From Oscillospiraceae bacterium (GTDB lineage: Bacteria > Bacillota > Clostridia > Oscillospirales > Ruminococcaceae), in assembly GCA_017432285.1 (NCBI GenBank), contig JAFRJM010000008.1, forward strand, positions 44,153 through 108,152: a DNA stretch of 64,000 nt, given 5' to 3'. Positions 3,001 through 55,948 of the stretch are shown here, piece by piece. Every line of letters starts with the position of its first letter. Within the stretch, counting starts at the first letter, position 1. The position numbers and the translations under genes are program-made. The notes beneath the pieces were generated by a model. It was not told the DNA's origin and ran no database searches. It saw only the letters and a list, made by a program, of their open reading frames with translations.

Positions 3001-6000
3001 GGTCATCGCGAATCCTGCACCGGCACCGATGGTCTTGCCGCCCTGGGTCTTCTGCTGACCTGCATCCTGAGCTGCCGGGTTGGAATCTGCCTCGAACACT
3101 GCAACTATCTCAGTGTTTGCAGCCGGCATGTAGAAGAGATATGCTGTACCGCCGTCAGGATCAATGATCGAGCTGTCCGTAGTGACGATATCCTGCTTCT
3201 TCTCTGTAGGCTGCTCGGTACTGTTCGGATCCTTTTCCGGTGTGTATTTGATATAGAGTTTAGTGAGCTTGTATCCGGCTGCAGGATTGACTATGATCGC
3301 TATCCTGTCCTCATACTCTGCTCTCGGCTCAGCTCCCTGTCTGGCCGCATTGACATTGAGGATCTTGACTGTTCCTCTGACAGTCGCTGTCGACTGGCCG
3401 CTCTGTGTCACCTTATCCTCATATGTGACAGTCCAGGTGTTGTCGGAGTTCTCCTCTTTCTTGGTCATATCCATGCCGGCATATCCGGTACCGCTCTCAC
3501 CGACTTTTTTCTCCTTCTTTACCGAGAGGGTCGTCTTGCTTATGAATATGAGCTCCGCACTGACAAGAGAGCCGTCTTTGATGTCATATGACTTATTGTC
3601 GGAGTTGATGTCGAGTTTGAGCTTGCTGGTCCAGTTGCCGTCATCGTCCTTTGTGCGCACGATGGTGAAAGCATAGCCGCTTTCGCTGTAGATGGACTCC
3701 GGTCCTACACTCACAGTCACCGGCGAGCCGTCCGGCTTCGTGTATGTGAAGTATACCTGCTTAGTATCCAGCTCATATCCGGTCTCCGGTTTGGCGGTGA
3801 GATAGTAGTACTGTTCTACCATGCCCTCACTTAAACCGCCGTGTGTGTTTCCGGCCTTAAGCGTTCCGGATCCTTTGCCTTCGACCGTGAGATCCACGTC
3901 TTTCACAGACTGTGTATCTTCGCTGACGAACACCACTCTATACTCAAGCATCGAACCCGCTTTTACTTTGACGTTCCTGCCGGCGAGAATGATATCCACC
4001 TCTTCACCGGTGGTTCCGATCTCGGGAGAAGTAAATTTGTTGTCGCCGAAAATCGGAACCTCTACCATGACTTTGGTTCCGTCTTTCTTCTGATATGTAA
4101 CTGTAACTCTGCGGATCCTCATGCCGGGGTCCGGTGTGAGCGTTACTTCACGTCCGTCCACCTCTGCTTTTCCGCCGGCAGATACTGAAATGGTCGTATT
4201 GGAGATCTCAGCGGGCTTGATAACTGCAGGAGGTGTCTGTGTCCCATCAGCACCATTGACTCCTGTGCCCTGCCCTGCGTTGAGGTTGGCGTTTGCTTTT
4301 CCTCTGGAATCTTCCGCTGCGGAAGCTGTTGTCTTCTCGATCTGGTTGCCTTCAGCCTTGATTGTGAGGTCTCCGGTCACTGTCACGTACTTGGTGCTTG
4401 CGATCTTCGTGCCGGCGATCGTTGCAGCTGTTGTTCCTTTGATCACAGCGATAGCTACGGATCCGGCGACAGCTGCCTGCTTGCCGCCCGCTCCGGCTAT
4501 AGCGTCTGTTGTGAATGTGTGGGAATTAGGAACTTCCTCAACAGCAACCTTGACTCCCAGGATACCTGTGAGTTCATCGATAGCTGCGTTGGTAAGAGCC
4601 TTGCCCGCTTCCTTGAGGGCGTCCATGAGATTCTGCTTGAGGATCTCGCCGACTCTTCCGGATCTCAGGAAGTTCTTAAGTTCGGTTATATTGCAGATGC
4701 CGTCTGTGAGCGTTCCGCCGACCTTGAGAGCGATAGCTTTCAGGGAGTCAGTGACTGCTGTCTTGAATCCCTCAGCGTTCATGTTCTCCCTTGACGGGAT
4801 GGAGATGCTGTATTCAGCTGCCACTTCGGTGATCTTTGCGATAAGGTCATCGATGATCTTGTCTCTTGCTGTGATGAGGATGCCGTTCTCCCCGATGAAT
4901 GCCTCCTTAAGGCGCTGTCCGAGCTGGCTGTTCTCAGGCACCTCCCCTCCTGTGTTGGCAGGATTGAGGAAATCCGCAAGCATCGGTCTCACGACCTGTA
5001 CGATGTTTGTCAGGATAGCATCCTGGATGACCGGCCATGCATCAGTCTTCAGGTAATTGAGAAGGACTGCCTTCACTCTGTCCCAAACAGTAGGACCGGG
5101 TTCGCCGAGCAGTGAATCGACTGTCTCTTTGAGCTTGTCCGGGATGCTGAGGAACATGGTGACGAAATCAGCAAGATTCTCCTTCACCTTCTCGTACGGA
5201 TTGCTCTCGAGGAGCTGTTCCAGACCGGTTCCCTTCAGTAACTCGTCCTTTGCGGCGTCGAAAGCATCGCCGACCATCTTCGCGATGACCTGCTGGGCAC
5301 TTTTGCCGAAGATATCTGCAATACCGAGAGCATCTGCGATATCCTTTGCAAGATCAGCGACTGCCTTGTAGAGCAGATCCGTCAGCCAACCGTAATTGGT
5401 ATCCGGCGCTGAGCTCTCTCCGTCTCCGCTGCCGGAGTCTGACTCGATCATTCCGGCAATGAGGACAAGCTTATCAGCGGTAACACTGGAATCCCCAATG
5501 ACCGCTATGTTCTCGTATGTAACTATATTGATTGCTACTGCTACGCCGACGCCGATCTTTCCGTTGCTGGCGCTGCCGTTAGCAGTAATGTTGTCTTCGT
5601 TCTTGGCGAGAGCCATGACTATGACTGCACCGCCGTCACCGTCTACGCCTTTTGCTGTTACTGTGAGATCAGGATCGATCTCGGCCTTGGCATAGATCTT
5701 GTGAATATTGAGTGTGAATGCGGCTGCAACATCTATGCTGCCTTCTGTGGTGCTGGCTCCCTGTCTGGAAGCTGTGCTGCCGCGCATTGATGACGGATCC
5801 GTGCCGCCCGCATTGACGTGGGACGAGAGCTTGCCGGCTCCGCCGAGCATACCGTCAGCCTGTTTGTCCGCCCCCGATTTCCCGTCAGGGTCAGACGACC
5901 CCGAGTCAGAGGATCCGGAATCGGAGGATCCGGAGCCGGATGACGGAGACGATGCCGCTCCGCTCGCGCTCGCCTTGGAGCTGGAGCTCGTGCGGTTCCT

Positions 6001-9000
6001 TGCTGTTGTTGTCACGCTGAGTCCCTTTGTGTTGACGCTGCGTGAAAGTTTTGCGTTCGTGACATCTTTCAGTACGGAGATCGCGAATGATCCGCCGACT
6101 GCAACGCTTCCGCCTGCTGCGGCCGCGTCTGCTGTAAGGGTCCTGGTAATATCGCTGTTGGCTGCGATCTTGATGTCTCCGGCACAAGTGATCTTCTTTG
6201 TTCCGGATCCAAGCTTTGCCCTTGTCTCTGTTCCTGTCACCAGGAGTGAGAGAACAGGGGTCACCGAGATACCGCCGGCTGATCCTGCAGCTGCGTCTAC
6301 TCTCTGTGTATCCGAAGATGTTGCGGATATCTCCATTCCGGAGAGATCCTCGGTTATTGTTATAGGTGTTTTGTCTTCGATCTCTGCGATGGTCTCGATA
6401 CCAGTGACCTGCACCGCGATACCTGCGCCTACGCCTACGCTCTTGGACGTCTCTTTGCCCTGAGCGTCTCCCTTTGTGGCAAATGCCGTCTTGGAAGAAG
6501 CTGTTGCGTTGAGTTCGCCTCCGGAGAGCTCAAGTTTGGCAGTTGAATATACGACAGCGTGAGTCTTTGCCTTGCCGACATTGACCGCAACGGCACCGCC
6601 GATACCGATATCGCCCTGGCTGTATCCGGCCAGCGCTTCCACGGTGCCTGTCGTTTCAGAAGCAGCATTGACTGTGAGTCCCTGTGCTTTGACAGTTGCA
6701 TTCTCGACTTCCGCTGTAATGGTATTCTTTACGACACCGACCGCTACGGATACGCCTGCGGAAACGGTGCTCTTTCCTCCGGCTCCTGAGCCGGCATTCT
6801 GCTGAACGCCAGGGGTGAATCTCGCCCTGACCTCAGCCGTTGATCCTTCGGCGATGTTAGCCGGAAGTTTGCATGTATATTTCGTTCCGACTCCAGTGGC
6901 CTTGACTACCTGAGTCTGTGCGCCGGAGGTGATGGACACCTCTACGCTTCCGTTGACGATCTTATAGCCGTCGCCGGGCTGGACTGTGAAGGAGATGGTG
7001 TCTCCGGAATCCGCCTTTGAAGAATCGAGCGTGATCTGTCCGTTGGTGGATGCCCCTGCTTTGAGCGTCAGAGCCTTAAGAGCAAGGACAGGTCTGAAAT
7101 TGAATGTGTAATCGACCTCATCGAAGTCGTACTGCAGATTGTTGTACATGTACTTGGGAGCGATCTTCCAGCTCCAGGTACCGTCTGCATTCTTTGTTAC
7201 ATCTATCTCGGGGATAATAGTGTTATCTTCTCTGGTGACGCTGATCGTGAGACCTGTGATCTTGTATCCTTCCGCTGCCGCTTCAGGTGTAACGGAAATG
7301 GTGATCGTCTCACCCGCAGACGCCTTCGTATGCGAGGCCTTTACATTGCCCGCCGCATTTGCGCCTGTGGTATCAAGGGCGATGGTGTGCATCTGATCGA
7401 AGAAATCCGCGCTGATTGTGACGTCAGTATCGGGCATCTCGAATGAATACCATCCGTCTGCACCTGCTTCTTCAAACTCCTTGACAGTCTCCTGTCCGTC
7501 CAGAGTGTATTTCACCGTGATCTTGACAAGCTGTCCGTTGACTGAGGAAGTGGCATCGAGTTTGAATTTTACTGTCGCTGCTTCTACAGCCTGTGTCGGC
7601 GTCTCGCCCTCTGCCGGAGTGACTGTTGATGTCTCAAAGACGATCGATCCGGCTGTGGTGGACGGTGTTCCTCCCTGCAGGACTGCTGTATTGACGTTGT
7701 GCTTGTTCTGTACGAAGACCACTCCGACTGTGATGGCGGATCCCTTCTTGAGTCCTGTCAGCTCGGCAGGCTTGAAGAAGTAGTTGCCGTTTGAGTCCTT
7801 ATTGAGAGCGATCTTTACTGTTTCTTCCGTCGCTGCTGATTCCGCTGTTGCAGCTACAGTCTTAACATATGTGAGGTACGCGCCTGTCGGAGCGGGTGTC
7901 TCATCTTCTGTTCCAGTGCTTTCCGCTGCAGCGGGGACAGTATATCCGGTATCAGGAGTGATCTTGAAGGAGTACACTGAGCTTCCCGGTCTGCCGCTTG
8001 TGTGGGTGATGGTGCCGTTGGTGGTGCTCTCAATTGTGACCGTGTTGGCTATGAGATACTCGCCGACGACTTCCGCACCTGTGGTGAAGTCCTGGAGCTT
8101 GATGTTGACCTGTGTTCCGGATTTGATCTTGAGCGTGGAGAGGTCTACGACATAGGTGCCCTTTGTTGTATCGAGAGTCGCCTTGCCGGTCTGGACCGCG
8201 CCAGCTTCATTTGTGTATGTGAATGTGACTTTTCCGTCATCGTTGGAGAAGTTGTTCGTCGGGCTTACGACCTTGAGCACGAATATTCCCTTCTCTGCGT
8301 CTCCGCCTGGGACCTGCTTGAGAGCAGCTCCCTTGGAAGGCTCGATGTATACGGTGTAAGGAACAATAGCCTGAGCTGCTGTCACCTGGCCGGGGCCGGC
8401 AGGTGTGCTCGCAGGTCCGGTCGGGCTGGCTGCTGCGGCTGTTGCCGGATTGGCTACAGCTGTTCCGTCTGCCTTGACTTCCGCTTTGGCTGAACCAGTA
8501 GCGTCCACTGTGATGGATCCTTTGGCTTCGACTGTTCCTGTTGTGTCTATCTTTGCATTGTTTGTGTTGAGGTTGACGCCTCCGGCGAGAGCACCGGATG
8601 ATTGCGCGGTAGCTGCGTTGGTAGCTGTTGTCTGCTGTGTATCCTGTCCTGTGACTCCGGCCTTCTTCCCGAATGTGGCGTTGAGGAAGATTCCGTCTTT
8701 GCTCACGCCTGCCGGAACTGTGTATGCATATGCTCCGCTCTCGTTCTTCGTGATCTCTTCGGTCACTGTGCGAAGCTTGTTTTCGTCTTTGACGTAATAC
8801 ACCTTGTCTTTCGGGATCTCAGCTCCCATCTTGACACCCTGTATTACATATGCTCCGTCTTCGATGCAGTAATAATCGACTTCCGCCTGGAACTTATCTT
8901 CCGATGCAGGTGAGAAAGGAGTCTCATATACGGCGTACAGTCCGGTGAGAGTGTATCTCAGAGCCGGGTTGACTATAACTGTGAACTCCTGGCCGACGTC

Positions 9001-34005: not shown

Positions 34006-36147
34006 ATGAGCGTTTTAACAGATCTTATTTACGGCGGCTCTAATGCGGTAGCTGGCCTTACCGAAGGCGCGGTAAACGACGCGATCGCCAAATACGGAGC
34101 GGATAAGCCCGTAACCATGCCCGGCACGGCATACTTCCTCCCCACTATCTACGCTGCAACAGGCGTTAAGGTGGAGAAACTTGGTGACCTGCCTGCCTGC
34201 GTGGGAGTACTGAAATCCCTTATTACAAACCAAGAAGATCTCGGTCAGGCTCTTAATGCCGGCCTCGCAACAGCAGTTGGTGCTGAGATTCTCGAAGCAC
34301 TGAAATATGTTGAAAGCGCAGATCCGTATGCAGACGAACCCGGAATCGGATTCGTACCGGACCCAATCATCAGGTCTCTCGGTGTTCCGCTGGTTACCGG
34401 AGACATCCCAGGCGTTGCTGTCGTTCTCGGCGAAGCAGAGAATCCGGATGATGTAGCTGCTGTAGTCAGAGACTATCAGGACAAAGGTCTTCTGACATTC
34501 CTCGTCGGCAATGTCATCGACCAGATCCTTGAAAAGAACGTCAAAGTCGGTCTTGAATACCGTGTTATCCCGCTCGGACATGCAGTCACCGCTGTCATCC
34601 ACGTTGTGACCGTTGCCGTCCGTGCAGCCCTTATCTTCGGCGGACTGACCCCCGGCGATCTTCCCGGACTTCTTGCATATACCAAAGACAGAGTTCCTGC
34701 ATTCGTCAACACCTTCGGTGCTCTTGACAGCGTAGTGGTGTCTGCCGGTGCAGGCGCTATCGCTCTCGGTTTCCCGGTAATCGTTGACATCGATCTGGGC
34801 GAAAATCAGGTCCCAGGTGCATTGGTATCCGTACTTGATCATTCCGAGACAGTAAAGACCTCTCTCGAGCTTCGCAACATCAAGGTCAAGGCAAAGGCCG
34901 TTTCCCTTCCGGTAGGATTCGCCTCCGCTTTCGAGGGTGAGATCATCCGCAGACCCAACACCTATGTCGAGTTTGACTCTGACCACAACCCGACTTGCGA
35001 GCTCCTCACCATGGTTGATAATCCTGATGAGATCGAAGACCATAAGATCGAGCTCATCGGACCTGAAGTCCCCGAAGGACTGACAGAGCTTCTCCGCCTC
35101 CCCCTTGCCACCAGAGTCAAGGTGTACGGCGCAAAGATGCAGAAAGACTTCGAGTCTGTTATTGAGAGAAGAATCCATACATGGTTCAACTATATTGAAG
35201 GTGTCATGCACACTGGACAGAGAAACCTGTTCCGTATCCGTATAAGCAAGGATACTTTCAACGCCGGATTCCGCCTCCGCGATCTTGGTGAAGTTCTCTA
35301 CAGCATGATCATGGATGAGTTCGGAAACGTCGTCGACAAATGCCAGGTAGCTCTTATCACAGACAAAGCACTGGTTGAAAAGATGCTCGAAGAAGAAGGT
35401 ATGCCAACATATCGTTTCCGCGATAACAGGCTCTCTTCTCTCAGTGATGAGAGCGTTGACCAGTTCTACACCTGCATTCTGTGCCAGAGCTTCGCTCCTG
35501 CACACTGCTGCGTTGTTACCCCTGAGCGTCTCGGACTCTGCGGTGCAGTTTCCTGGCTTGATGCTAAGGCTACCTATGAGCTGAATGCCACTGGCCCGTC
35601 CCAGCCGATCCCGAAGGAAGGTCTTCTCGATGAGAGACTCGGAAGATATGAGGCTGTAAACCAGGCAGTCGGTATGGCAACACACGGCGCAGTAGAAAAT
35701 GTTACCCTTTACTCCCTGATCGAGGATCCAATGACCAGCTGCGGCTGCTTCGAGTGCATCTGCGGTATTGAGCCGTTCTCCAACGGTGTTGTCATCGTCA
35801 ACCGTGAGTATTCCGGTATGACCCCGACAGGTATGACTTTCGGCGAGCTGGCCTCCATGACCGGCGGCGGCGTACAGACCCCAGGATTCATGGGACACGG
35901 CCGTCACTTCATCGCCTCCAAGAAGTTCATCAGCGCTGAAGGCGGCACAGCCCGTATCGTCTGGATGCCCAAAGAGCTGAAAGAGGACCTCAGAACCCGT
36001 CTGAACAAGACAGCAAAAGAGACCCTCGGCATTGATGATTTCGTAGATATGATCGGTGACGAGACCATTGCAACCGATCCGGAAGCCCTGCTTGAGTTCC
36101 TGACCGAAAAAGGCCACCCGGCACTGAGCATGGATCCGATCATGTAA
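34006..36147 (+). CDS. acsB: Acetyl-CoA synthase (CO-methylating), full length
   Basis: 713 residues, close to the 729 of the Moorella enzyme, including the N-terminal CODH-contact domain that archaeal homologues lack. A-cluster ligands match exactly in spacing: cubane Cys490, Cys493, Cys502, Cys512 (CX2CX8CX9C) and the distal nickel site CGC, Cys579 and Cys581. It joins methyl, CO and CoA to acetyl-CoA. The full-length N-terminal domain implies a partner CODH (AcsA), which is not encoded in this window. A 718-codon open frame lies antisense but is a codon-bias shadow. Confidence 0.97.
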   Translation: MSVLTDLIYGGSNAVAGLTEGAVNDAIAKYGADKPVTMPGTAYFLPTIYAATGVKVEKLGDLPACVGVLKSLITNQEDLGQALNAGLATAVGAEILEALKYVESADPYADEPGIGFVPDPIIRSLGVPLVTGDIPGVAVVLGEAENPDDVAAVVRDYQDKGLLTFLVGNVIDQILEKNVKVGLEYRVIPLGHAVTAVIHVVTVAVRAALIFGGLTPGDLPGLLAYTKDRVPAFVNTFGALDSVVVSAGAGAIALGFPVIVDIDLGENQVPGALVSVLDHSETVKTSLELRNIKVKAKAVSLPVGFASAFEGEIIRRPNTYVEFDSDHNPTCELLTMVDNPDEIEDHKIELIGPEVPEGLTELLRLPLATRVKVYGAKMQKDFESVIERRIHTWFNYIEGVMHTGQRNLFRIRISKDTFNAGFRLRDLGEVLYSMIMDEFGNVVDKCQVALITDKALVEKMLEEEGMPTYRFRDNRLSSLSDESVDQFYTCILCQSFAPAHCCVVTPERLGLCGAVSWLDAKATYELNATGPSQPIPKEGLLDERLGRYEAVNQAVGMATHGAVENVTLYSLIEDPMTSCGCFECICGIEPFSNGVVIVNREYSGMTPTGMTFGELASMTGGGVQTPGFMGHGRHFIASKKFISAEGGTARIVWMPKELKEDLRTRLNKTAKETLGIDDFVDMIGDETIATDPEALLEFLTEKGHPALSMDPIM

Positions 36148-36163
36148 TATATCACTAACATCA

Positions 36164-36192
36164 AACATCACCGGGAATCTCCCGGTGATGTT
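36164..36192 (+). other. Perfect hairpin between acsB and the corrinoid activator gene
   Basis: 13-bp perfect stem (AACATCACCGGGA and its complement) with a three-base loop, ending just before the ribosome site TAGGAG of the activator gene (start 36208). No T-run. It is probably a partial attenuator or mRNA-stabilising element that lowers activator levels relative to AcsB (inference). Compare 27389-27417, in the same place relative to the other activator gene. Confidence 0.6.
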
Positions 36193-36207
36193 CTTGTAGG
36201 AGTTAAT

Positions 36208-37881
36208 ATGTTCACGCTTACTTTTAAAGTTGAAAATCAGCCGCTTGACATCAAGTGTCAGGTCGATGCGGGAGAAAACGTGCTGAGAGCAGCTCAGCGC
36301 GCAGGAATCGAGATAGATGCTCCCTGCGCAGGAAACGGCACCTGCGGCAAATGCAGGGTAAGGCTTATCTCAGGTGCGCTTGAAATGCAGCCGAATCCGC
36401 GTCTTCCCTATATCGATTATGAGGAAATGTGGAGACTCGCCTGTCAAAGCAAGGTGATAGGAGATGCCGTCGTATGGGTGCCTGCAACAGCCAGCGCATT
36501 CAAGCAAGATATCGCCACTGCTGACCTCTCCAGCCCGGAAGAACTTGCGAGATATGAACATGCCATACAGGGGATCTTTTCTTCTGGCTTATCTCCTTCT
36601 TCCAGCGAAAGCTGCGGTATAGCCATAGATATCGGCACAACGACAGTTGCGGCTGCCCTTCTGGATCTGAAGACCTGTAAGGTCCTTTCCAAAGCCAGCC
36701 GAGGCAACGGCCAGATACGTTACGGTGCCGATGTCATCAACAGGATAATCCAGCAGATGAAACCGGGCGGAAAGGAAAGGCTCCAGAAAGCAGTTAGAGA
36801 AGAAACCATCATTCCCATAATGCAGACGCTCTTAAAGGACAGCGGGAAATCCGCATCAGATATATCGCGCATCGTAATCGCCGGCAACACAACGATGGAG
36901 CATCTGTTTATCGGCGCAGACGGCGATTCCATACGGCTCGAACCATATGTCCCTGAGTTCCTTGAACTGACCGGTGTAGATGCGAACAGAGCCGGTTTGC
37001 CGGTACCCCCGGATTCCCCGGTGATATTCGCGCCAAACGTAGGAAGCTATGTCGGAGGCGACATCACTGCCGGTGTCCTGGATACTCTGATGTGGAACTC
37101 CGACCTTATGACACTGTTTATAGACCTTGGCACAAACGGTGAGCTGGTCTTCGGAAACAGCGAATATATGCTCTGCTGTGCATGTTCCGCAGGCCCTGCC
37201 TTTGAAGGCGGCGATATCAGCTGCGGTATGCGCGCTACTACAGGCGCAATCGACAGTGTCTATATTAACGAAGATACGCTGGAACCTGAATATACTCTTA
37301 TATCCGGCGAAAAGCCTCTCGGCCTCTGCGGAAGCGGACTGATAGATATCATCAGTGAACTGTTCCGCACCGGTGCTGTGAACTCTAAAGGCAAATTCGT
37401 CAGGGAATCTCCCAGGATCCGCTATGACGAATACGGCGGCAACTATATCGTTGCATTTGCGTCGGAAAGCGGTACCGGAAAAGATATCGAGCTGAATGAA
37501 GGCGACCTTGATAACTTCATTCGCGCAAAAGCTGCCATCTTCTCGGCTATCCGCACTATGCTGAAGTCTCTGGCCATGAGCGTTGATGACATAGATAGAG
37601 TCATCATTGCCGGCGGTATCGGAAGCGGTATAAATATTGAAAAAGCTATCAGCATAGGCATGCTACCGATGATACCTACTGATAAGTATTCCTATATAGG
37701 CAACTCCTCCCTGACAGGAGCCTGCGCAATGCTTCTTTCAGATGAAGCGGTGGAAAAGGTCTTTGATATAGGCAGAAACATGACATATATCGAGCTCTCC
37801 ACTGAACCAGGCTATATGGACGAGTTCCTGGCAGCCTGCTTCCTGCCACATACCGATCACAGACTGTTCGAACAAACCTGA
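36208..37881 (+). CDS. acsV: Reductive activator of CoFeSP (RACo)
   Basis: 557 residues. N-terminal 2Fe-2S domain (Cys40, Cys46, Cys49, Cys79; APCAGNGTCGKC and RLACQS), linker, then the ASKHA ATPase (DUF4445): IAIDIGTTTVAAALLDL, NGQIRYGADVINRI, VIAGNTTMEHLFIG, FIDLGTNGELVFG, CGSGLIDIISE, VIIAGGIGSGINIEKAI. It re-reduces Co(II)-CFeSP to Co(I) with ATP, so it repairs AcsCD after accidental oxidation. It lies right after acsB. About 35-40 percent alike by eye to the activator at 25884-27365. Confidence 0.92.
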   Translation: MFTLTFKVENQPLDIKCQVDAGENVLRAAQRAGIEIDAPCAGNGTCGKCRVRLISGALEMQPNPRLPYIDYEEMWRLACQSKVIGDAVVWVPATASAFKQDIATADLSSPEELARYEHAIQGIFSSGLSPSSSESCGIAIDIGTTTVAAALLDLKTCKVLSKASRGNGQIRYGADVINRIIQQMKPGGKERLQKAVREETIIPIMQTLLKDSGKSASDISRIVIAGNTTMEHLFIGADGDSIRLEPYVPEFLELTGVDANRAGLPVPPDSPVIFAPNVGSYVGGDITAGVLDTLMWNSDLMTLFIDLGTNGELVFGNSEYMLCCACSAGPAFEGGDISCGMRATTGAIDSVYINEDTLEPEYTLISGEKPLGLCGSGLIDIISELFRTGAVNSKGKFVRESPRIRYDEYGGNYIVAFASESGTGKDIELNEGDLDNFIRAKAAIFSAIRTMLKSLAMSVDDIDRVIIAGGIGSGINIEKAISIGMLPMIPTDKYSYIGNSSLTGACAMLLSDEAVEKVFDIGRNMTYIELSTEPGYMDEFLAACFLPHTDHRLFEQT

Positions 37882-47467: not shown

Positions 47468-48046
47468 ATGGCAAACAAAAGCTTCGGTCAGAAACTTCTT
47501 GGCGTATGGAACACCAAGACAATAGTTGCCGTGGCCATTGGCGCTGCCCTTTTCGGCGTGCTTATGAATTACGGTGGAATCCCAGTCTTCACTAACACAT
47601 CTCTTACAACAGCAATGATTGTTCCTGTTGTTGTCGGTGCGATGTACGGTCCCGTTCCGGCTCTTGTGGCAGCCGGTGTAGGAAACGTAATTGCTGACCT
47701 GCTTGGTGGCTGGGGCCTCTGGTTCGACTGGTCAGTCGGTAACGGAGTCGCGGCACTTTTCGTCGGACTTCTCCCTCTCTATGGTGCATACATCACAGAA
47801 GGTGTCTTTGAGATCAAGCATGCGATCATCTATATGCTCTGCTGCGTCGTAGGAAACGGCGTTGCATTCGGCATCGTCACACCTATCTTAACAACACTGT
47901 TCTATGGAGGCGACCTCAACGTCACATTCCTGCAGGCACTTGCGGCAAGCCTCGGAAATATCGCAGTTGAAGTCATCATCGGAATCCCTATACTCTTCCT
48001 GCTCGCAAAGAGATATAAATCACGCACAAACCTCGAAGAAGAATAA
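47468..48046 (+). CDS. ECF transporter S component
   Basis: 192 residues with six hydrophobic segments (TIVAVAIGAALFGVLMNYG, TTAMIVPVVVGAMYGPVPALVAAGVGNVIADLLGG, GVAALFVGLLPLYGAYI, AIIYMLCCVVGNGVAFGIV, and a C-terminal EVIIGIPILFLLAKRYKS). The early segment and the GP...A...G..I.DL pattern recall the UPF0397 group of S components. It binds the small-molecule substrate and works with the fused ATPase and EcfT encoded next. Because SAM hydroxide-adenosyltransferase genes follow, the substrate could be a SAM-, adenosine- or methionine-related compound; a vitamin is equally possible. Confidence 0.8.
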   Translation: MANKSFGQKLLGVWNTKTIVAVAIGAALFGVLMNYGGIPVFTNTSLTTAMIVPVVVGAMYGPVPALVAAGVGNVIADLLGGWGLWFDWSVGNGVAALFVGLLPLYGAYITEGVFEIKHAIIYMLCCVVGNGVAFGIVTPILTTLFYGGDLNVTFLQALAASLGNIAVEVIIGIPILFLLAKRYKSRTNLEEE

Positions 48047-48062
48047 TACAAATCCGGCCGGA

Positions 48063-48132
48063 CCGTAAGCTTTAGGCTACGGCTTCAGGCTTACGGTAAG
48101 GCCTCCGCACAGAAGAGATGAGCGGGGGCTTT
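48063..48132 (+). terminator. Two consecutive hairpins between S component and ATPase genes (attenuator)
   Basis: First hairpin: CCGTAAGC (48063-48070) with GCTTACGG (48089-48096). Second: an 11-bp stem with two G-T pairs (48098-48108 with 48122-48132) followed by TACTGTTTAATTAACT. The pair lies in the 114-base gap of an otherwise tight operon, so it probably lowers transcription of the ATPase and T genes relative to the S component. Confidence 0.55.
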
Positions 48133-48160
48133 ACTGTTTAATTAACTGCTTACTATTTAA

Positions 48161-49888
48161 ATGAGGAACAAAGACTTGAAAGAACCGATTATCAGTTTCA
48201 AGAATTTCGGATTCCGTTATAAGGAACAGAAGAATCCGACACTTTTCGATATAAATCTCGATATCTATCCCGGTGAAAAGATCCTTATCATCGGTGCGTC
48301 GGGAAGTGGCAAATCGACTCTATGCAACTGCATCAACGGGCTAATTCCGTTCTCTTATGAAGGAGAGATCACCGGCAGCTGCACAGTCAACGGCATTGAG
48401 CCCCGCAGCGCTTCGATCTTCAAACTCTCCAACTATGTGGGCACTGTCCTTCAGGACAGCGATGCCCAGTTCGTCGGCCTCTCAGTAGGCGAAGACATAG
48501 CATTCGCTATGGAAAACGACATGATACCGAGAGCGGACATGCTCCCCGTCATCGAGCGTAACGCGAAAATGGTCGGTATGCAGGACTTCATAGATAAAGT
48601 CCCGTTCGAACTTTCGGGCGGACAGAAACAAAAAGTCGCCATCGCCGGTGTATTCGGCAATGACGTTGAGATCTTGATATTTGATGAGCCTCTGGCGGCG
48701 CTGGATCCACAGATGGGAATGACAGCCGTTGAGCTCATAGACGATATATCCAAAGAAAGCGGAAAGACGGTCGTGATCGTCGAACACCGCCTCGAAGATG
48801 TGCTCCATCGTCCAGTGGACAGGATCGTTCTTATGTCTGAAGGACGTATAGTCGCAGATATGGAACCGGATGAGCTGCTCAAATCATCCCTGCTCAAAGA
48901 GTGCGGAATCAGGGAACCGCTGTATATCACAGCGATGAAATATGCCGGATGCAGCCTGGAAGGAAACAGGAATCTGTGCGATCTCCCATCTCTGGAGTTC
49001 ACAGATGATAACGAGAAGAAACTCAGAGAGTTCTTCACCATGAGCAGAGAGCCTGTGAAAGAGAACGAAAATGAAACCGTCGTCTCGTTCAAAAACGTCA
49101 CATATTCATACAGCGGTGACAGAAACGAGCTGGACGATATCACTTTTGAGATCAAAAAAGGTGAAAGAGTAGCCATAATCGGTAAGAACGGTGCAGGCAA
49201 GTCAACTGCAGCGAAACTGCTTTGCGGAATAATAAGACCTGCGTCCGGAACGATCGAACTTGAGGGACAGGACATTAAAAATATGTCCGTCAAAGAGATC
49301 GGTGAGAGAGTTGGCTATGTCATGCAGGACCCCAACCAGATGATAGTCAAAGACATCATCAAGGAAGAGGTCGGACTTGCACTTAGCATAAGAGGCGTTC
49401 AAAAAGAAACGGCTGAGTCTCAGATCGCAAAGGTGCTCGAGATATGCGGCCTGTACAAGATGAGAAACTGGCCTGTGGATGCCATCAGCTACGGTCAGAA
49501 AAAGAGAGTCACAGTTGCGTCTATGATGGCTCTGGAGCCTGACGTATTCATCCTCGATGAGCCAACTGCCGGACAGGATTACAGAAGCTACACCGAGATC
49601 ATGAAATTCGTCAACACACTGAACAAAGAGTATGGCAAGACGATCCTGTTCATAACGCATGACATGCATCTTGCAATAGAGAACACGGACAGAGCTATAG
49701 TGTTTGCTGACGGAAACATGATCGCCGCTGACAAGGTGTTCACTGTCCTTGCGGATGAAGAGATAATCAAAAGGGCAAGCCTGAAGCAAACGTCACTCTA
49801 TAATCTGGCTGTGAAACTAGGACTGGATCCTGAATCAACAATCCAGCACTTTATCGAATATGAAAGGTCGGTGAAAGAGAATGAATAA
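48161..49888 (+). CDS. ECF transporter ATPase, fused A1-A2
   Basis: 575 residues with two ABC domains in one chain. Domain 1 (about 10-250): GASGSGKST, LSGGQKQKVAIAGVFG, ILIFDEPLAALDP, EHRLEDV. Domain 2 (about 305-560): GKNGAGKST, a Q-loop MQDPNQMIV, the altered signature ISYGQKKRVTVAS, VFILDEPTAGQD, THDMHLA. Fused A subunits of this type (YkoD-like) serve ECF modules with one S and one T gene, as found here. It energises the module and overlaps ecfT by eight bases. Confidence 0.9.
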   Translation: MRNKDLKEPIISFKNFGFRYKEQKNPTLFDINLDIYPGEKILIIGASGSGKSTLCNCINGLIPFSYEGEITGSCTVNGIEPRSASIFKLSNYVGTVLQDSDAQFVGLSVGEDIAFAMENDMIPRADMLPVIERNAKMVGMQDFIDKVPFELSGGQKQKVAIAGVFGNDVEILIFDEPLAALDPQMGMTAVELIDDISKESGKTVVIVEHRLEDVLHRPVDRIVLMSEGRIVADMEPDELLKSSLLKECGIREPLYITAMKYAGCSLEGNRNLCDLPSLEFTDDNEKKLREFFTMSREPVKENENETVVSFKNVTYSYSGDRNELDDITFEIKKGERVAIIGKNGAGKSTAAKLLCGIIRPASGTIELEGQDIKNMSVKEIGERVGYVMQDPNQMIVKDIIKEEVGLALSIRGVQKETAESQIAKVLEICGLYKMRNWPVDAISYGQKKRVTVASMMALEPDVFILDEPTAGQDYRSYTEIMKFVNTLNKEYGKTILFITHDMHLAIENTDRAIVFADGNMIAADKVFTVLADEEIIKRASLKQTSLYNLAVKLGLDPESTIQHFIEYERSVKENE

Positions 49889-50801
49889 CAAACTGGTTAT
49901 CAACTATACACCGGGGCCGACCTTCTTACATAAGCTTACGGGATTCACTAAGGTGTTCTCGTTTCTGATGATGACGGTCGCTATCATATGCACGTACGAC
50001 ATAAGGCTCCTGATCCCTCTCCTGATCATCAATATCTTTGAAATCATTTCAATGAAACCTGACTACAAACCGATAGTAATAATGTTTGCTATAACGTTCG
50101 TGACGGTTACTCTCATAGGAAACATAATGCTGTTTGTAGTCAGTCCCAATGTCGGACTCAACAATATAGGAGCGGAAAATATAATATGGCACAGTACCGG
50201 AAGGCTGTATCTTTCAAAGGAGTTCCTCTGGTACATGCTCGTTGTATTTATAAAGAGGACCGCATCCTTTGCTTCGGTTATAGCTTTTGCTCTCGCCACG
50301 ACTCCGTCAGAATTTGCTTCCGGACTCAACAAGGTCGGGCTCCCTTACAAAGTCTGTACGATAGTATCTCTCGCTTACAGGACGATCCCTGATATAGCCA
50401 ATGACTTCATCAACATAAGAAACAGTATGATGATGAGAGGTGTAGAGCTCTCAAAGAAAGCCAGCCTCTGGAAGCGGCTCAAAAATACCGTCCTGATCCT
50501 GGTCCCTCTGATCTTCACCGCTTTCGGAAAAGTCGGAAGCATAGCGAATGCCATGGATCTCAGAGGGTACGGAAAGAACAAGAAGCGCACCTGGTATGCA
50601 GAACGCGAACCGTCTAAGGGCGACATGGTCATCAGAGCTCTCTCTGTCGTGCTAGGCCTCCTTGCACTGTACTACATCATACGTTACAGAATAATCGATC
50701 CGTGGCCTGCAAAGATGTGGTGCCCATGGGTTAAATATGAGGACGTCATTCAAATAAACCAGATAGATACCATTTTCTTCATGAAATGGTTTAAAAAATA
50801 G
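49881..50801 (+). CDS. ecfT: ECF transporter T component
   Basis: 306 residues with about five hydrophobic segments in the first 130 residues and one near 260. Two cytoplasmic coupling motifs with the Arg-Gly pair that contacts the ATPases: MMMRGVEL and AMDLRGYGK. The C-terminus is longer than usual (KMWCPWVKYEDVIQINQID...). Overlaps the ATPase gene and is followed 25 bases later by the first SAM hydroxide-adenosyltransferase gene, so the transporter and these enzymes probably form one transcription unit. Confidence 0.88.
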   Translation: MNNKLVINYTPGPTFLHKLTGFTKVFSFLMMTVAIICTYDIRLLIPLLIINIFEIISMKPDYKPIVIMFAITFVTVTLIGNIMLFVVSPNVGLNNIGAENIIWHSTGRLYLSKEFLWYMLVVFIKRTASFASVIAFALATTPSEFASGLNKVGLPYKVCTIVSLAYRTIPDIANDFINIRNSMMMRGVELSKKASLWKRLKNTVLILVPLIFTAFGKVGSIANAMDLRGYGKNKKRTWYAEREPSKGDMVIRALSVVLGLLALYYIIRYRIIDPWPAKMWCPWVKYEDVIQINQIDTIFFMKWFKK

Positions 50802-50826
50802 CGAAACGGACGGAGGTAATTGAAAG

Positions 50827-51663
50827 TTGGCATATTTAGTCATTCAGACAGACTTTGGAACAGGATCTCTCTCAGTCAGCGCAATGCATGGAGTATGCGC
50901 TATGGTAGACCCTGATCTCAAGGTCGCCGACGGTAACAACGCTGTGGATCAGTTCAACGTGCTTGATGCCTCGGAATCACTCATGTATCTCCTGCCCTAT
51001 TGGCCGAAAGGCACAGTATTCGTATCAGTCATTGATCCCGGAGTAGGCACTGCGAGAAAAAGCTGTGTCGCGAAACTAAAAGACGGGCAGTATGTGGTTA
51101 CCCCGGACAACGGAACGCTCACATACATCAAGGAGCGCATAGGTATCGAGTCCGTCAGAGAGATCGATGAAAAGGTAAACAGACTCAAAGGTTCCGAAGG
51201 GATCAACATCTTCCACGGAAGAGACGTGTATGCATATTGCGGAGCGAGACTTGCCGCGGGAATTATCGACTTTGAAGGCGTTGGACCAGAGTATCCTGTT
51301 AGCGAGATAGTTGAAGCTCCGTATATCAAGCCGGAAAAAACCGACTCCCAGGTATCCGGAATGATAAACGAGGCCGGCGAACACTTCGGCCTTGTTGGAA
51401 CCAACATCCCGTTCGAATGGTTGGAAGAACTGGGTATGGTATACGGTGATAACGTCAATGTTACTATCATGAACGGTGACACCACTGTTTTCGAAAACAC
51501 TATCCCTCTCGCAAAATCTTTCGGATTCGTGAGCATCGGACAGACATTGCTGCTCAGTTCGGAAACAAGAACCGTCATGATGGCAGTGAACCAGGGGAAC
51601 GCTGTGACCGATTTCGGCATCGGATTCGGTCCCAAGTGGAAAATGATAGTAAGAAAGGGATGA
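50827..51663 (+). CDS. SAM hydroxide adenosyltransferase (copy 1, intact)
   Basis: 278 residues from a TTG start with GGAGGT nine bases upstream. DUF62/SAM_HAT family, which splits S-adenosylmethionine with water into adenosine and methionine and is related to the SAM fluorinase/chlorinase. Key residues present: TDFG (8-11), Asp70 and Arg77 of DPGVGTAR, PDNG (93-96) and His130 of FHGRD, i.e. the Asp-Arg-His triad with normal spacing. N-terminal catalytic and C-terminal beta-barrel domains are complete. Starts 25 bases after ecfT. Confidence 0.9.
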   Translation: MAYLVIQTDFGTGSLSVSAMHGVCAMVDPDLKVADGNNAVDQFNVLDASESLMYLLPYWPKGTVFVSVIDPGVGTARKSCVAKLKDGQYVVTPDNGTLTYIKERIGIESVREIDEKVNRLKGSEGINIFHGRDVYAYCGARLAAGIIDFEGVGPEYPVSEIVEAPYIKPEKTDSQVSGMINEAGEHFGLVGTNIPFEWLEELGMVYGDNVNVTIMNGDTTVFENTIPLAKSFGFVSIGQTLLLSSETRTVMMAVNQGNAVTDFGIGFGPKWKMIVRKG

Positions 51664-51668
51664 GCCTA

Positions 51669-52487
51669 ATGGCAAGTTCAGTAGTGATACATTCGGACAG
51701 TGGCACTTATAGCACACTGTTCGCAAAAACGGCAGGCATTATTGCCTGTCTGGCCCCGGAAGCGGAGATCGTCGATGCCAGTCAGGGATTCGAGCGTGGC
51801 AACATAAGGCAGATATCTGCATATTTATTCACATCCGTTCCATTCTGGCCGGACGGGACGGTATTCCTTTCTCTAGCAGGAGAAGGAGATCCTGTCGCAG
51901 TGAGACTTGCATCTGGCAGTTATATAATCAGTCCTAATAATGGAACTGCCACGATGTGCGCGAAGAGTTTCGGAGCTGAGTCCGTGAGGTTTATCGATAC
52001 GGAGAAATTCGGCGGAGATGAATGGGCTTTAGTGAGATGCGCTGCTGCACTCGCATCCGGAGAATCCTTTGATGACATCGGAAGACTCGCCGAAGAAGGA
52101 GAAACCGTCTATTATGATCTGTCGGTATCCATGATAGGGGACGGATACGCCGAAGGCGAGGTCAGCATGCTTCTCATGACTTTCGGAAATATTACCTTCA
52201 GCATAGGAACGGATGAGTTCGAGAATACCGGGATAAGAACTGGTGACGCTGTACGAGTCACATTCACCAGAAACGGCAGTATTGAGTGGCAGGCAGATAT
52301 GACCTATCAGCCGTCGTTCGGATATGTGCCTGAAGGAGCACCCGTCGTATTCAATGGCAGTTCAGGATATATGGACATAGGCCTTAACAAAAAGAACTTC
52401 ATCAAGAGATGCATCCCTCAGATCCTCGATGCTGATGATCCGGGAGAGTTCAAAGTAAGGATTGAAAAGATCGGAGGCAAACAATGA
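51669..52487 (+). CDS. SAM hydroxide adenosyltransferase paralogue (copy 2, catalytic residues lost)
   Basis: 272 residues from the ATG at 51669 with AAAGGG upstream. Collinear with copy 1 in length and domain order, but the motifs are changed: HSDSG for TDFG, LAGEGDPVAVRL in place of DPGVGxxR (Asp and Arg gone), SPNNG for PDNG, and GGDEWAL where HGRD is expected (His gone). The frame is fully open and has a good ribosome site, so it is not a random pseudogene. Either a non-catalytic subunit that forms mixed trimers with the active copies, or a binding protein with a new role (inference). Confidence 0.8.
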   Translation: MASSVVIHSDSGTYSTLFAKTAGIIACLAPEAEIVDASQGFERGNIRQISAYLFTSVPFWPDGTVFLSLAGEGDPVAVRLASGSYIISPNNGTATMCAKSFGAESVRFIDTEKFGGDEWALVRCAAALASGESFDDIGRLAEEGETVYYDLSVSMIGDGYAEGEVSMLLMTFGNITFSIGTDEFENTGIRTGDAVRVTFTRNGSIEWQADMTYQPSFGYVPEGAPVVFNGSSGYMDIGLNKKNFIKRCIPQILDADDPGEFKVRIEKIGGKQ

Positions 52488-53344
52488 AACCCTGTATAGT
52501 TCTTCAGTCGGACTTTGGAATTTCGACAGGTCTTCCTGCGTCTATGACTGCAGTTATCGTAAAACTGGACCCGGAGATAAGGGTGTTTGATCTCTGCCAT
52601 GAAGTCCGGGAATACGACATCAGAGAAGGCGGAAGCATTCTGGCTTCCACGTTCCCATACTGGCCTGACGGCACCATCTTCGTATCGGTCGTTGATCCTG
52701 GCGTAGGAACCAACAGGAGAAGCTGCGTTGCACTTATGGATAACGGAAGCTTTGTGGTCACTCCGGACAACGGAACGTTAAGTTATCTTTATGACAGGAT
52801 AGCATCCGTACGTGAAATAGACGAAAAAATAAACAGGCTTCCCGGTTCAGATGATCATCACACATTCCACGGAAGGGATGTCTACGCTTACACTGCTGCC
52901 AGACTTGCATCCGGGATCATAGATTTTACCGGTGTCGGGCTTGAATTCGCTAAAGAGACACTTGTGAGATTCAGCATGCCTACGGCCGAGATCATTAACG
53001 GGGTAGCATGCGGCGAGATCACAGGTGCGCACGACCATTTCGGGAATGTGGGCATTTCCATTCCTAATGAAATGATAAAAGAGGTAGGGATTAATCTCGG
53101 GGACATGTGCAGACTTGAGATTATAAAGGATGGAATAGTCATCTACGACAGGATCATGATGTTTCACAAGTCTTTCGGCTGGGTGAAACCAGGTGAACCC
53201 ATTCTCAACGAGTGCAGCAATGACTACGTGGAACTATCTATAAATCAAGGCAGTTTCTGTGAGCTCGAGATGCCTGAACTGCTCAGGGAATACGATCTGT
53301 CACAGTATAAAGTCAGAATATCTCCTTTAAAGGAGGAAATTTGA
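52484..53344 (+). CDS. SAM hydroxide adenosyltransferase (copy 3, intact)
   Basis: 286 residues overlapping copy 2 by four bases (ATGA). All family motifs: QSDFG, VVDPGVGTNR (Asp and Arg seven apart), TPDNG, TFHGRD. Region after QSDFG differs from copies 1 and 4 (ISTGLPASMTAV instead of GSAMHG), so the adenosine-side pocket may differ. Complete C-terminal domain ending QYKVRISPLKEE. Confidence 0.88.
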   Translation: MKPCIVLQSDFGISTGLPASMTAVIVKLDPEIRVFDLCHEVREYDIREGGSILASTFPYWPDGTIFVSVVDPGVGTNRRSCVALMDNGSFVVTPDNGTLSYLYDRIASVREIDEKINRLPGSDDHHTFHGRDVYAYTAARLASGIIDFTGVGLEFAKETLVRFSMPTAEIINGVACGEITGAHDHFGNVGISIPNEMIKEVGINLGDMCRLEIIKDGIVIYDRIMMFHKSFGWVKPGEPILNECSNDYVELSINQGSFCELEMPELLREYDLSQYKVRISPLKEEI

Positions 53345-54198
53345 TGAAACCAATTATCGTGATGCAGACTGACTTCGGTGTAGGAGGAGGCAGTGCCATG
53401 CACGGCACATGCCTCAAAGTAGACCCGGAGTTAGAAATATATGAAGCAAATCACAGTATTGAGAAGTTCAATGTCCAGGCTGCCAGCAGAAGCCTTCACA
53501 ACATCACCCCGTACTGGCCGGAAGGAACCATATTCGTATCGGTAATAGACCCTGGCGTCGGTACTTCAAGAAGAGCATGCGTTGCTCTTCTCAATAACGG
53601 AAGCTATGTAGTATCTCCCGACAATGGTTCGCTGACATTGCTTCTGGACAGCCCCGGTATCAAGGCAGTCAGAGAGATAGATGAGACTGTCAACAGACTC
53701 AAAGGCACCGAGAAAGTCAGCATATTCCATGGAAGGGATCTTTTCGCTTACTGCGCTGCGAAACTGGCTGCAGGGATAATAGATTTCAAAGGTGTCGGAC
53801 CGGAGTATCCAGTCGATGAGATCGTCAGGTATTCAGAGCTTGGTTACTCGGTCTCTGCCGGAAAAGTAACAGGGTTCTCAACAGCCATGATGAGGACATT
53901 CGGAAATCTGGAGACAAGTATTCCTATAGAAGCAGCTGAAAAAGCAGGGCTCGTCCTTGGGAAAGATGTTCATGTGATCATCATGAATGCCGGGAAGACA
54001 GTATTCGACAAGGATATACCGTTCAGGCCTTCTTTTGGATGGGTCAGCGAAGGCGAAGAACTCGTATACAACAGCAGCGACGGTGTTCTGGGAATCGGAA
54101 TAAACCTTGGGGACTTCATCAGTAAATATGGTATAGGCTTCGGTGAAGACTGGACAGTCATTATAGAAAAGGAGCGCGTGTCATGGGATACATTGTGA
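53344..54198 (+). CDS. SAM hydroxide adenosyltransferase (copy 4, intact)
   Basis: 284 residues; the ATG at 53344 overlaps the copy 3 stop by one base and follows AAAGGAGG. Motifs: QTDFGVGGGSAMHG, VIDPGVGTSR, SPDNG, IFHGRD. Closest by eye to copies 1 and 5 (shared GTIFVSVIDPGVGT, AYCAAKLAAGIIDFKGVGPEYP). Full C-terminal domain. Overlaps copy 5 by 16 bases. Confidence 0.88.
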   Translation: MKPIIVMQTDFGVGGGSAMHGTCLKVDPELEIYEANHSIEKFNVQAASRSLHNITPYWPEGTIFVSVIDPGVGTSRRACVALLNNGSYVVSPDNGSLTLLLDSPGIKAVREIDETVNRLKGTEKVSIFHGRDLFAYCAAKLAAGIIDFKGVGPEYPVDEIVRYSELGYSVSAGKVTGFSTAMMRTFGNLETSIPIEAAEKAGLVLGKDVHVIIMNAGKTVFDKDIPFRPSFGWVSEGEELVYNSSDGVLGIGINLGDFISKYGIGFGEDWTVIIEKERVSWDTL

Positions 54199-54683
54199 TG
54201 CAGACCGATTTCGGCAGAGGCGGATCGGGGGCTATGGCCGGTGTGTGTAAGATCGTGGACAAGTCTCTCAAAGTCTACAACATAACCCATGAGGTCCCGA
54301 AATTCAACGTGAAAGCTGCCGGGCATAATCTTACTGAAGTACTGCCATACTGGCCTAAAGGAACAGTGTTTGTATCAGTGATAGACCCAGGAGTGGGCAC
54401 TGAAAGAAAGGCTTCGGTCGCTGAGACTCAGAATGGCTACTATATAGTGACTCCTGATAACGGATGTCTAGCTGAGATAGCTGAACAATACGGAATAAAA
54501 GCAATCAGGGAAATAGACCAATCTATCAACAGATATAAAGGAAATCAATGGTCTGTAAAGTCCGATATATTCCATGGAAGAGATATATTCGCATATTGCG
54601 GGGCACGACTTGCAGCCGGCATTATAACCATTGAAGAGGTTGGTCCCGAATACCCCGCCGACGAAATAGTAGGACTGGGCTAA
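54183..54683 (+). CDS. SAM hydroxide adenosyltransferase (copy 5, C-terminal domain missing)
   Basis: 166 residues. Contains the full N-terminal catalytic domain with triad motifs (QTDFGRGG, VIDPGVGTER, TPDNG, IFHGRD) and stops with a TAA after PEYPADEIVGLG, exactly at the domain border. The C-terminal barrel of about 115 residues, which covers the adenine in the known trimer, is absent. Whether it is a natural single-domain form or a recent truncation cannot be told; 230 bases downstream show no leftover of the domain. Could pair with the C-terminal domain of another copy. Confidence 0.82.
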   Translation: MGYIVMQTDFGRGGSGAMAGVCKIVDKSLKVYNITHEVPKFNVKAAGHNLTEVLPYWPKGTVFVSVIDPGVGTERKASVAETQNGYYIVTPDNGCLAEIAEQYGIKAIREIDQSINRYKGNQWSVKSDIFHGRDIFAYCGARLAAGIITIEEVGPEYPADEIVGLG

Positions 54684-54855: not shown

Positions 54856-54913
54856 AAGATTATAGATGTATCCGAAACCCGTATCACACAGACACACGAT
54901 AAGGAGACTCAGA

Positions 54914-55948
54914 ATGAAATTCGATCCTAAAGAGATAGAAAACGCTAAAATAATAGAAGGAAGAGGCGGCCGAAAAATATCCGTGTTTGCCTCGCCGATC
55001 ACTCCAAGAGAGAACTTTCGCAGAGCTCTCAGGCATGAAGCGATGTGGATGCCTTCTGCATTTGACAAAGGCGGCGCTCTCAACGAAATAATACCGGATA
55101 ACCCGGCCAGGATGAGAGGCGGTCTTGACATGTTCGGTATATACTGGGAATTCGTTCCTCGTGCAGGTGGATCTATAGTACGTCCTGGAAACCCGACTCT
55201 TACCGACATAACCAAATGGAGAGAAATCATTAAATTCCCTGATGTAGACAGTTGGGATTGGGAAGGACAGGTTGAGGCGGAAAGGCAGAACTTGAAAGAG
55301 GATCAGAAGTTTGTATTCTTCACGATCCTCACAGGCTATTTTGAAAGATTGATTTCCTTCATGGACTTCGGTCCTGCAGCATACACGCTGATGAACCGCA
55401 AAGTAAAGCAGGATGTGAAAGACTTGATGGATGCCTTAGCTAACCTGTGGATAGACATTGTTGACCATGTTTACAAATACTATGGCGATCTCGTGGATGG
55501 CATTACTCTTCATGATGACTGGGGCGCTCAGGATGGGCCTTTCTTCAACGAGAGAGTCGTCAGAGAAATGATCGTCCCTTACATGCGCAAAGTCACTGAC
55601 CACATTCACAGTCTTGGATATGTCACCAATCTTCATTCCTGCGGCAAAGTAGAAAAACTCGTGCCGTGCATGATAGAGGCAGGGTTTGACTGCTGGGACG
55701 GTATGGCTATTAACGACTATCATATGTTATACGAGCTATACGGCGATAAGATCCTTATGAATGTTCCCGCAAATGACTATCCGGCAGATGCAGACGATGA
55801 AGCAAAAAAAGAATGGGCAGCTCGATTTGTAGAAGAATTCGCAAATAAAGAGAAACCGGCAGCCTTATCGTTCTATAACGATCCCGGATTTGAGTTTGAT
55901 TCTGAAATATACAAACTAACAAGACTAAAATTCGATTACGACAACTGA
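54914..55948 (+). CDS. URO-D family methyltransferase, paralogue of 23259-24341
   Basis: 344 residues from the ATG at 54914 with AAGGAGA upstream; a frame extension to 54866 has no ribosome site. Same subfamily as 23259-24341: SPITPREN, DMFGIYWEFVP, LHDDWGAQDGPFFNERVV, NLHSCGKVEKL with His241 and Cys243 as likely zinc ligands, WDGMAINDYH. Monocistronic with its own promoter and terminator, 25 kb from the operon that holds the corrinoid protein, so it probably feeds another methyl donor into the same corrinoid pathway (inference). Confidence 0.82.
   Translation: MKFDPKEIENAKIIEGRGGRKISVFASPITPRENFRRALRHEAMWMPSAFDKGGALNEIIPDNPARMRGGLDMFGIYWEFVPRAGGSIVRPGNPTLTDITKWREIIKFPDVDSWDWEGQVEAERQNLKEDQKFVFFTILTGYFERLISFMDFGPAAYTLMNRKVKQDVKDLMDALANLWIDIVDHVYKYYGDLVDGITLHDDWGAQDGPFFNERVVREMIVPYMRKVTDHIHSLGYVTNLHSCGKVEKLVPCMIEAGFDCWDGMAINDYHMLYELYGDKILMNVPANDYPADADDEAKKEWAARFVEEFANKEKPAALSFYNDPGFEFDSEIYKLTRLKFDYDN

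Follow-up and report, generated by a model that had tools for sequence, protein, structure and literature searches.

The window, as we call the whole stretch of 64,000 nucleotides that was analysed, contains at positions 47468-54683 a cassette of eight genes on the forward strand, in which a complete ECF importer (S, AA′ and T) is followed directly, head to tail, by five genes coding for SAM hydroxide adenosyltransferases (HATs, formerly DUF62), a family whose role is disputed. The five HAT genes are referred to here as types A to E:

47468..48046, + strand, ECF transporter S component of the PF07155/COG4720 family (Pfam 3e-27)
48161..49888, + strand, fused ECF AA′ ATPase with two ABC domains (NCBIfam ECF_ATPase_1 and ECF_ATPase_2)
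49881..50801, + strand, ECF T component (Pfam CbiQ, 1.2e-26)
50827..51663, + strand, HAT type A: N-domain live as judged by its triad; C-domain with Leu for Asn215 and Glu for Ser269
51669..52487, + strand, HAT type B: N-domain without the triad; C-domain with Asn215 and Ser269
52484..53344, + strand, HAT type C: both halves canonical (triad, Asp210, Asn215 and Ser269)
53341..54198, + strand, HAT type D: N-domain live as judged by its triad; Asp210 replaced (Arg in 13/22), Asn215 and Ser269 kept
54183..54683, + strand, HAT type E: N-domain only, with a live triad; C-domain absent

All five HAT reading frames are open, and the spacings A/B, B/C, C/D and D/E are 5, −4, −4 and −16 bases, in agreement with the initial annotation, which had described five tandem paralogues, overlapping or a few bases apart, in one operon after an ECF transporter. 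The S, A/A′ and T parts that such a transporter requires are all present between 47468 and 50801 (PF07155, two ABC domains and CbiQ). No further HAT gene was found in the window's own genome, the assembly of which is 54.6% complete. The general expectation of a single HAT gene per genome held in a sample of the phylum, where 20 of the 25 HAT-bearing genomes had one, but not in the family of genome G329 (Solobacterium title), where 93 of 107 HAT-bearing genomes, among 244 searched, gave at least two matches. A URO-D-like gene is found downstream of the array in the window and is not common to other arrays.

Pfam analysis of the window proteins revealed SAM_HAT_N in A to E and SAM_HAT_C in A to D only, the C-terminal barrel being absent from E. 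In the family test for the N-domain (PF01887 and PF20257) all five proteins scored above the Pfam cut-off, the weakest being B with 57.4 bits vs 26.3. Types A, C, D and E of the window retain the Asp-Arg-His triad (DPGVGT.R and FHGRD) while B, although full length and open, has lost all three residues and most of the surrounding loop. Motif inspection and Pfam thus bore out two further claims made from the letters alone, that four genes keep the triad and the one at 51669-52487 does not, and that the gene at 54183-54683 codes for the catalytic domain only. AlphaFold2 models were obtained for single chains of B and E. B was modelled with the full two-domain fold (pLDDT 92.9, pTM 0.80), and its best solved matches by Foldseek were chlorinases on top, a fluorinase and HATs. 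The model of E is a single N-domain (pLDDT 85.0) which matches the N-domains of HATs, with a pLDDT under 50 at residues 117-130, just before FHGRD.

In order to assess how far the cassette is distributed, protein C was used as a query against a collection of 84,980 species, each represented by a single genome. This returned 23 loci. The cassette is present in 20 of them, complete or truncated where a contig ends, and the other three are single genes of Acidobacteria. Two of the 20 cassette loci, L035 and L036, belong to the same assembly, in which a stretch of 18,858 bases occurs identically on two contigs. Arrays of these fixed types were found in three Bacillota lineages, recorded as Oscillospiraceae/Ruminococcus, Solobacterium/Erysipelotrichaceae and Clostridiales/Bacillota, with the recurrent gene order ECF-S, ECF-AA′, ECF-T, (A), B, C, D, E. 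The cassette starts with ECF-S in 17 of the 20 loci (one being the identical second copy), and the contigs of the other three start inside the operon. Where a source is recorded by name for a cassette genome, the material came from a section of the gut, the host being goat, sheep, water buffalo or water deer; the genomes with a named source are mostly from ruminants.

Among the relatives of the window's genome, at least five HAT matches were detected in 6 of 8 other genomes of the same genus, including G001, where they are split over contigs and lack C. Four of 28 other family members had a HAT, with one match each, and 0 of 24 other members of the order had any HAT match. With B as the query, one of 295 genomes of the order sample was matched and 25 of 398 genomes of the phylum sample contained any HAT, B itself occurring in both samples in the window's own genome only. 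HATs were present in 107 of 244 genomes of the G329 family, with B in 11, and in 8 of 19 genomes of the G331 family, with B in 5. This patchy spread, combined with an identity of 70-84% for type C, suggests that the cassette may have been transferred horizontally as a whole.

The conservation of key residues was then counted across the copies of each type, one duplicate contig (L050, equal to L109) having been removed from the residue and rate counts. The triad is retained in 17/17 copies of A, 22/22 of C, 22/22 of D and 21/21 of E, whereas each of its three positions scores 0/23 in the 23 distinct copies of B, so that B is not a hydrolase by motif. All 21 complete copies of E are 162-168 residues long, with the triad kept and no C-domain. 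The SAM-binding residues of the C-domain are Asp210, Asn215 and Ser269 in 1RQP numbering, as given in Table 2 of PMC2515338, and the corresponding positions in A to E were assigned by alignment to this numbering. Type C has all three (22/22 copies), while B and D have two of the three: Asn215 and Ser269 are kept in 23/23 copies of B, in which position 210 is Lys (17), Arg (5) or Met (1), and in 22/22 copies of D, in which position 210 is Arg in 13/22 and never Asp. In type A, Asn215 is replaced by Leu and Ser269 by Glu in 17/17 copies, and E has none of the three residues. The Asp of the TDFG position is kept in 20/23 copies of B. As A, B and D are changed at ligand residues, their sites may not bind SAM, and the altered residues 210, 215 and 269 would allow different ligands at the methionyl end.

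Each type forms its own clade in FastTree phylogenies of the N-domain (support: A 0.987, B 1.0, C 0.996, D 0.989, E 0.997) and of the C-domain (A 0.99, B 0.706, C 0.999, D 0.984). B has a long stem (1.115) in the tree of the N-domain and one of ordinary length (0.455) in that of the C-domain. Median amino-acid differences for the N- and C-domain, respectively, are.171 and.383 in A,.566 and.368 in B,.210 and.310 in C, and.248 and.508 in D, and.329 for the N-domain of E. The N-domain differs more than the C-domain in 250/253 pairs of B, 0/136 of A, 8/231 of C and 0/231 of D, these pairs not being independent; the rates of the two domains are thus reversed in B alone, with a fast N-domain and a slow C-domain. 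Values of dN/dS were at most 0.23 wherever dS was usable (13 chosen pairs of loci, with many comparisons saturated). Recent amplification in tandem, followed by the decay of a part of the copies, would account for tandem paralogues of which two out of five lack parts, yet the same types occur in three lineages as separate deep clades with dN/dS far below 1. We give next to no credence to such an origin, and its strain-specific form, which the initial annotation had named as an outcome that would refute its reading, is excluded by these data.

The invariant triad also speaks against a shift of the enzymes to another nucleophile (halide or other) on SAM, which had been put forward as a possible role for the array. 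The fold does include chlorinases and fluorinases: FlA and SalL share it, with an active site at the interface, and chlorinases head the matches of B, as the shared fold alone would give. However, according to PMC10491745, the water-activating triad is absent from the halogenases. FlA and SalL lack it, whereas every copy of A, C, D and E has it; B lacks it too. Use of another nucleophile is therefore unsupported and deserves very little credence, and a SAM-dependent halogenase was rejected for A, C, D and E on the presence of the triad. It is the SAM hydrolases/HATs (DUF62) PH0463, MJ1651 and StDUF62, of the same fold, that have the Asp-Arg-His triad in common with these four types, and the C-domain ligand residues of DUF62 enzymes are also kept by type C. 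The characterised DUF62 enzymes are, as described, products of one gene, in contrast to the five fixed types found here beside an ECF importer, one of them without the triad and one consisting of the N-domain only.

Types B and E occur together in the sample. A search of the 244 genomes of the G329 family with E gave, among the matches listed, ten short frames (164-208 codons, 63-73% identity), all of them in genomes with B; in the eleventh B genome of the family, G578, the contig ends within C. Weaker half-genes beyond the matches listed may have escaped detection. In the genomes G554 and G560, A and B are joined in a single frame of 571 codons, and Pfam analysis of one of the two fusions revealed two N-domain and two C-domain stretches. 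As these genomes are related (dS of about 0.1-0.6), the two fusions probably share one event. Five loci (L045-L048 and L051) have B, C, D and E but no adjoining A. Three of the genomes concerned (G331, G334 and G336) have an unlinked gene with the C-domain signature of A, which groups with A when the tree is built from the C-domain, but not when it is built from the N-domain; G332 has an extra HAT copy of another type, and no fifth copy was found in G333. In L121 (genome G434) A is present with no match to B or E, so that A at least does not need B. As arrays without a linked A exist and A is separable from B-E, we regard B-C-D-E as the steady core, in which C, D and E each contribute a live N-domain, and B, C and D each a C-domain that retains Asn215 and Ser269. 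A gene of the M20 peptidase family lies between ECF-T and the HAT genes in five loci (Pfam was run on two of the five).

The separable parts could also mean that the array codes for five separate enzymes or binders, the full-length types forming homotrimers with substrates of their own that differ in methionyl-end chemistry, B acting as a sensor or regulator and E as a chaperone-like or regulatory half. C-domain ligand positions that differ in fixed ways by type (Lys, Arg or Met at 210 in B, mostly Arg in D, Leu215 and Glu269 in A) fit such a division, as do the TDFG-position Asp of B and the occurrence of A and of B-E apart from each other. It is less easily squared with the invariant triad of E, which without a C-domain would lack half of the family's ligand residues if it acted alone, with the conservation of the C-domain ligand residues of B while its N-domain drifts, or with the A-B fusion and the co-occurrence of B and E. 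We consider five independent proteins unlikely, if well worth keeping in mind. Mixed oligomers of the HATs, for which the conserved B and E types, their co-occurrence, the reversed domain rates and the A-B fusion provide indirect support, are the reading that we prefer.

We examined next how firmly the HAT genes are tied to the importer. ECF genes adjoin HAT genes in 36 of 49 stretches from relatives (14/20, 15/19 and 7/10 in three sets), a sample whose choice favoured tandem copies and which includes two known loci again; the six misses of the first set had been chosen as extra copies that are unlinked. Exactly two HAT genes follow ECF-T in 20 of 24 non-array ECF-HAT loci of the G329 family, and the C-domain motifs of the pair differ in all 20. 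Like the array, these pairs consist of ECF S-AA′-T and HATs of different C-domain type, but they have no dead or half subunit, and they probably embody the same principle in a simpler form.

The upstream regions of 42 HAT-ECF operons (16 arrays and 26 others) were scanned for leader RNAs. A recognised leader is in place in three of the 42, including one of the 16 arrays. In L043 a SAM riboswitch (59.2 bits, 3909-3989) lies just before a five-HAT array; L099 has a purine riboswitch upstream of its HAT-ECF operon (63.1 bits, 8869-8970), which we take to be of the guanine type from the C at its specificity position; and in L140 the operon is preceded by a T-box (114.4 bits, 5584-5854) of Met type, with the specifier AUG read by eye. 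The S component of the window shares 65% identity with its counterpart in L043, 43% with that in L099 and 27% with that in L140. Two other T-boxes with a specifier read as AUG (L040 and L096) adjoin HAT genes but precede methionine-type ABC genes. On the window operon no known riboswitch was found at gathering level, a relaxed threshold giving sub-threshold matches only. Sensing of SAM, methionine and guanine, combined with an enzyme releasing adenosine and methionine, points to a salvage of SAM-like compounds. The proposal of SAM or adenosine salvage tied to an importer is thus supported indirectly, through the SAM, guanine-type and Met-type T-box leaders on three of 42 operons, the window's not being one of them.

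MetK was found in 18 of 20 cassette genomes and a PurH-type domain in 14 of 20, many of the genomes being incomplete, and auxotrophy of the carriers for SAM or purine was rejected on these counts. They suggest that the gain would lie in methionine and purine economy rather than in the supply of SAM. Switching on a SAM-splitting enzyme at low SAM would be paradoxical unless methionine or adenosine is what is gained.

The HATs could instead repair or clear endogenous (R,S)-SAM, with the importer only loosely related to them; StDUF62 hydrolyses only (R,S)-SAM, according to PMC12120602. This role in repair seems rather improbable, as ECF genes accompany HATs in 36 of 49 stretches (a sample selected in part for tandem copies), the leader RNAs precede both importer and HAT genes, and a guanine-type riboswitch does not fit. 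The importer, on the other hand, might carry a vitamin (B6, HMP or riboflavin), with the HATs acting on a by-product. Its S component belongs to the same Pfam family, PF07155, as those of the B6 and HMP transporters PdxU and PdxU2/HmpT, which PMC9997740 places in PF07155/COG4720, and is named a riboflavin S component by NCBIfam; no PDB relative was found by sequence (best E 0.83). However, the leaders on operons related to the window's point to SAM, methionine and purine and not to B6 or HMP, the only FMN riboswitch found (L118) lies on the other strand beyond the operon, and no vitamin-synthesis enzyme was seen beside an ECF-linked HAT in those flank families that were scanned with Pfam. A vitamin importer is accordingly quite a remote prospect. 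No nucleoside-processing enzymes were found among the flank families scanned in the same way.

From the observed gene content, fixed residues, clades, domain rates, co-occurrence, fusion and leader RNAs on relatives, we infer a working model that covers oligomer make-up, transported substrate, reaction and horizontal spread. In the trimers of this family, as the initial annotation also states, the N-domain of one protomer meets the C-domain of the next. For HATs, fluorinase and chlorinase, PMC12120602 and PMC2515338 describe structures built as a trimer or a pair of trimers, in which the site lies between protomers. We propose that the ECF importer would take up an adenosyl-sulfonium compound, most likely SAM including its (R,S) epimer, and that the HATs would split it into adenosine and methionine (or a methionine analogue). 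The simplest reading of the array is that the predicted hetero-oligomers are of the family's trimer type, each site combining the N-domain of one subunit with the C-domain of its neighbour, B lending its C-domain, as its own N-domain does not work, and E, which has no C-domain, lending a working N-domain. A ring X-B-E, where X is C or D and perhaps A, would contain two whole sites, N(X)+C(B) and N(E)+C(X), and one doubly empty place, at which the dead N(B) comes to lie opposite the missing C(E); this ring is a prediction and not a result.

We tentatively put the reading as a whole, in which the cassette imports an adenosyl-sulfonium compound that is split by HAT hetero-oligomers, dead B and half E complementing each other, and has spread horizontally, at a shade under an even chance. 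That the assembly is obligately mixed, with a dead N-domain in B opposite a missing C-domain in E and coupled to an ECF importer of SAM-like compounds, seems possible but somewhat doubtful. Several observations weigh against the main reading. A recognised leader is lacking in 39 of the 42 HAT-ECF operons, the window's among them; MetK in 18 of 20 genomes implies that imported SAM is not needed as SAM; the TDFG-position Asp kept in 20/23 copies of B is also compatible with a role in binding without catalysis; L121 has A but not B-E; A, B and D are altered at ligand residues; and PF07155 otherwise comprises B6 and HMP importers.

A limited search of the literature found neither a link between HATs and ECF transporters nor HAT heteromers, which does not establish their absence from print. 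The array appears to be a variant of the known HAT family with a testable physiological role, and enzymes in an importer operon, with SAM-, guanine- and methionine-type leaders on three relatives, make that role a question of uptake and assay experiments. If B and E do complement each other, they would constitute a naturally split enzyme, with a dead paralogue and a half one retained jointly. Were the proposal true as a whole, the HAT family would have a split, heteromeric member and a physiological role, the scavenging of SAM for methionine and purine.

At L033, a related locus with the same cassette, an IS605/TnpB-type gene (5040-6206) was found inserted with the fused ATPase gene ECF AA' on one side and the ECF-T gene on the other, the array being otherwise intact. 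At L034, ECF AA' was made up of two overlapping frames (4715-6423), a split that is possibly an assembly frameshift. L035 and L036 lie on two contigs of one assembly and share 18,858 identical bases, such that the whole cassette and its flanks occur twice, representing either a true duplication or an assembly artefact.

The gene directly downstream of the terminal HAT gene E was absent beside the other arrays:

Window 54866-55948: product weakly similar to URO-D/MtaA, at 24.6 bits against a cut-off of 23.9

Upstream of the cassette, the window encodes acetyl-CoA synthase (CODH/ACS beta) and a RACo-type corrinoid activator (34006-37881), which is acetogen-type carbon metabolism.

Outside the five-type arrays, L119 carried an ECF-HAT-HAT-oxidoreductase block twice on one contig as a mirror-image inverted pair. 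Another arrangement was seen at L096 and, in similar form, at L097 and L101:

L096 5187-8194: single-type HAT, then methionine-type ABC genes

The L096 ABC genes encode a NIL-domain ATPase and an NlpA lipoprotein (Pfam). A T-box was present at L096 and L101, the L096 specifier being AUG as read by eye.

Five loci (L101, L104, L115, L121 and L129) contained an M20 peptidase family gene between ECF-T and the HATs, identified by Pfam at L101 and L121 and of the same family at the other three:

L101 2964-4313: M20 peptidase, between ECF-T and the HATs

This peptidase may process an imported amide-bonded substrate.
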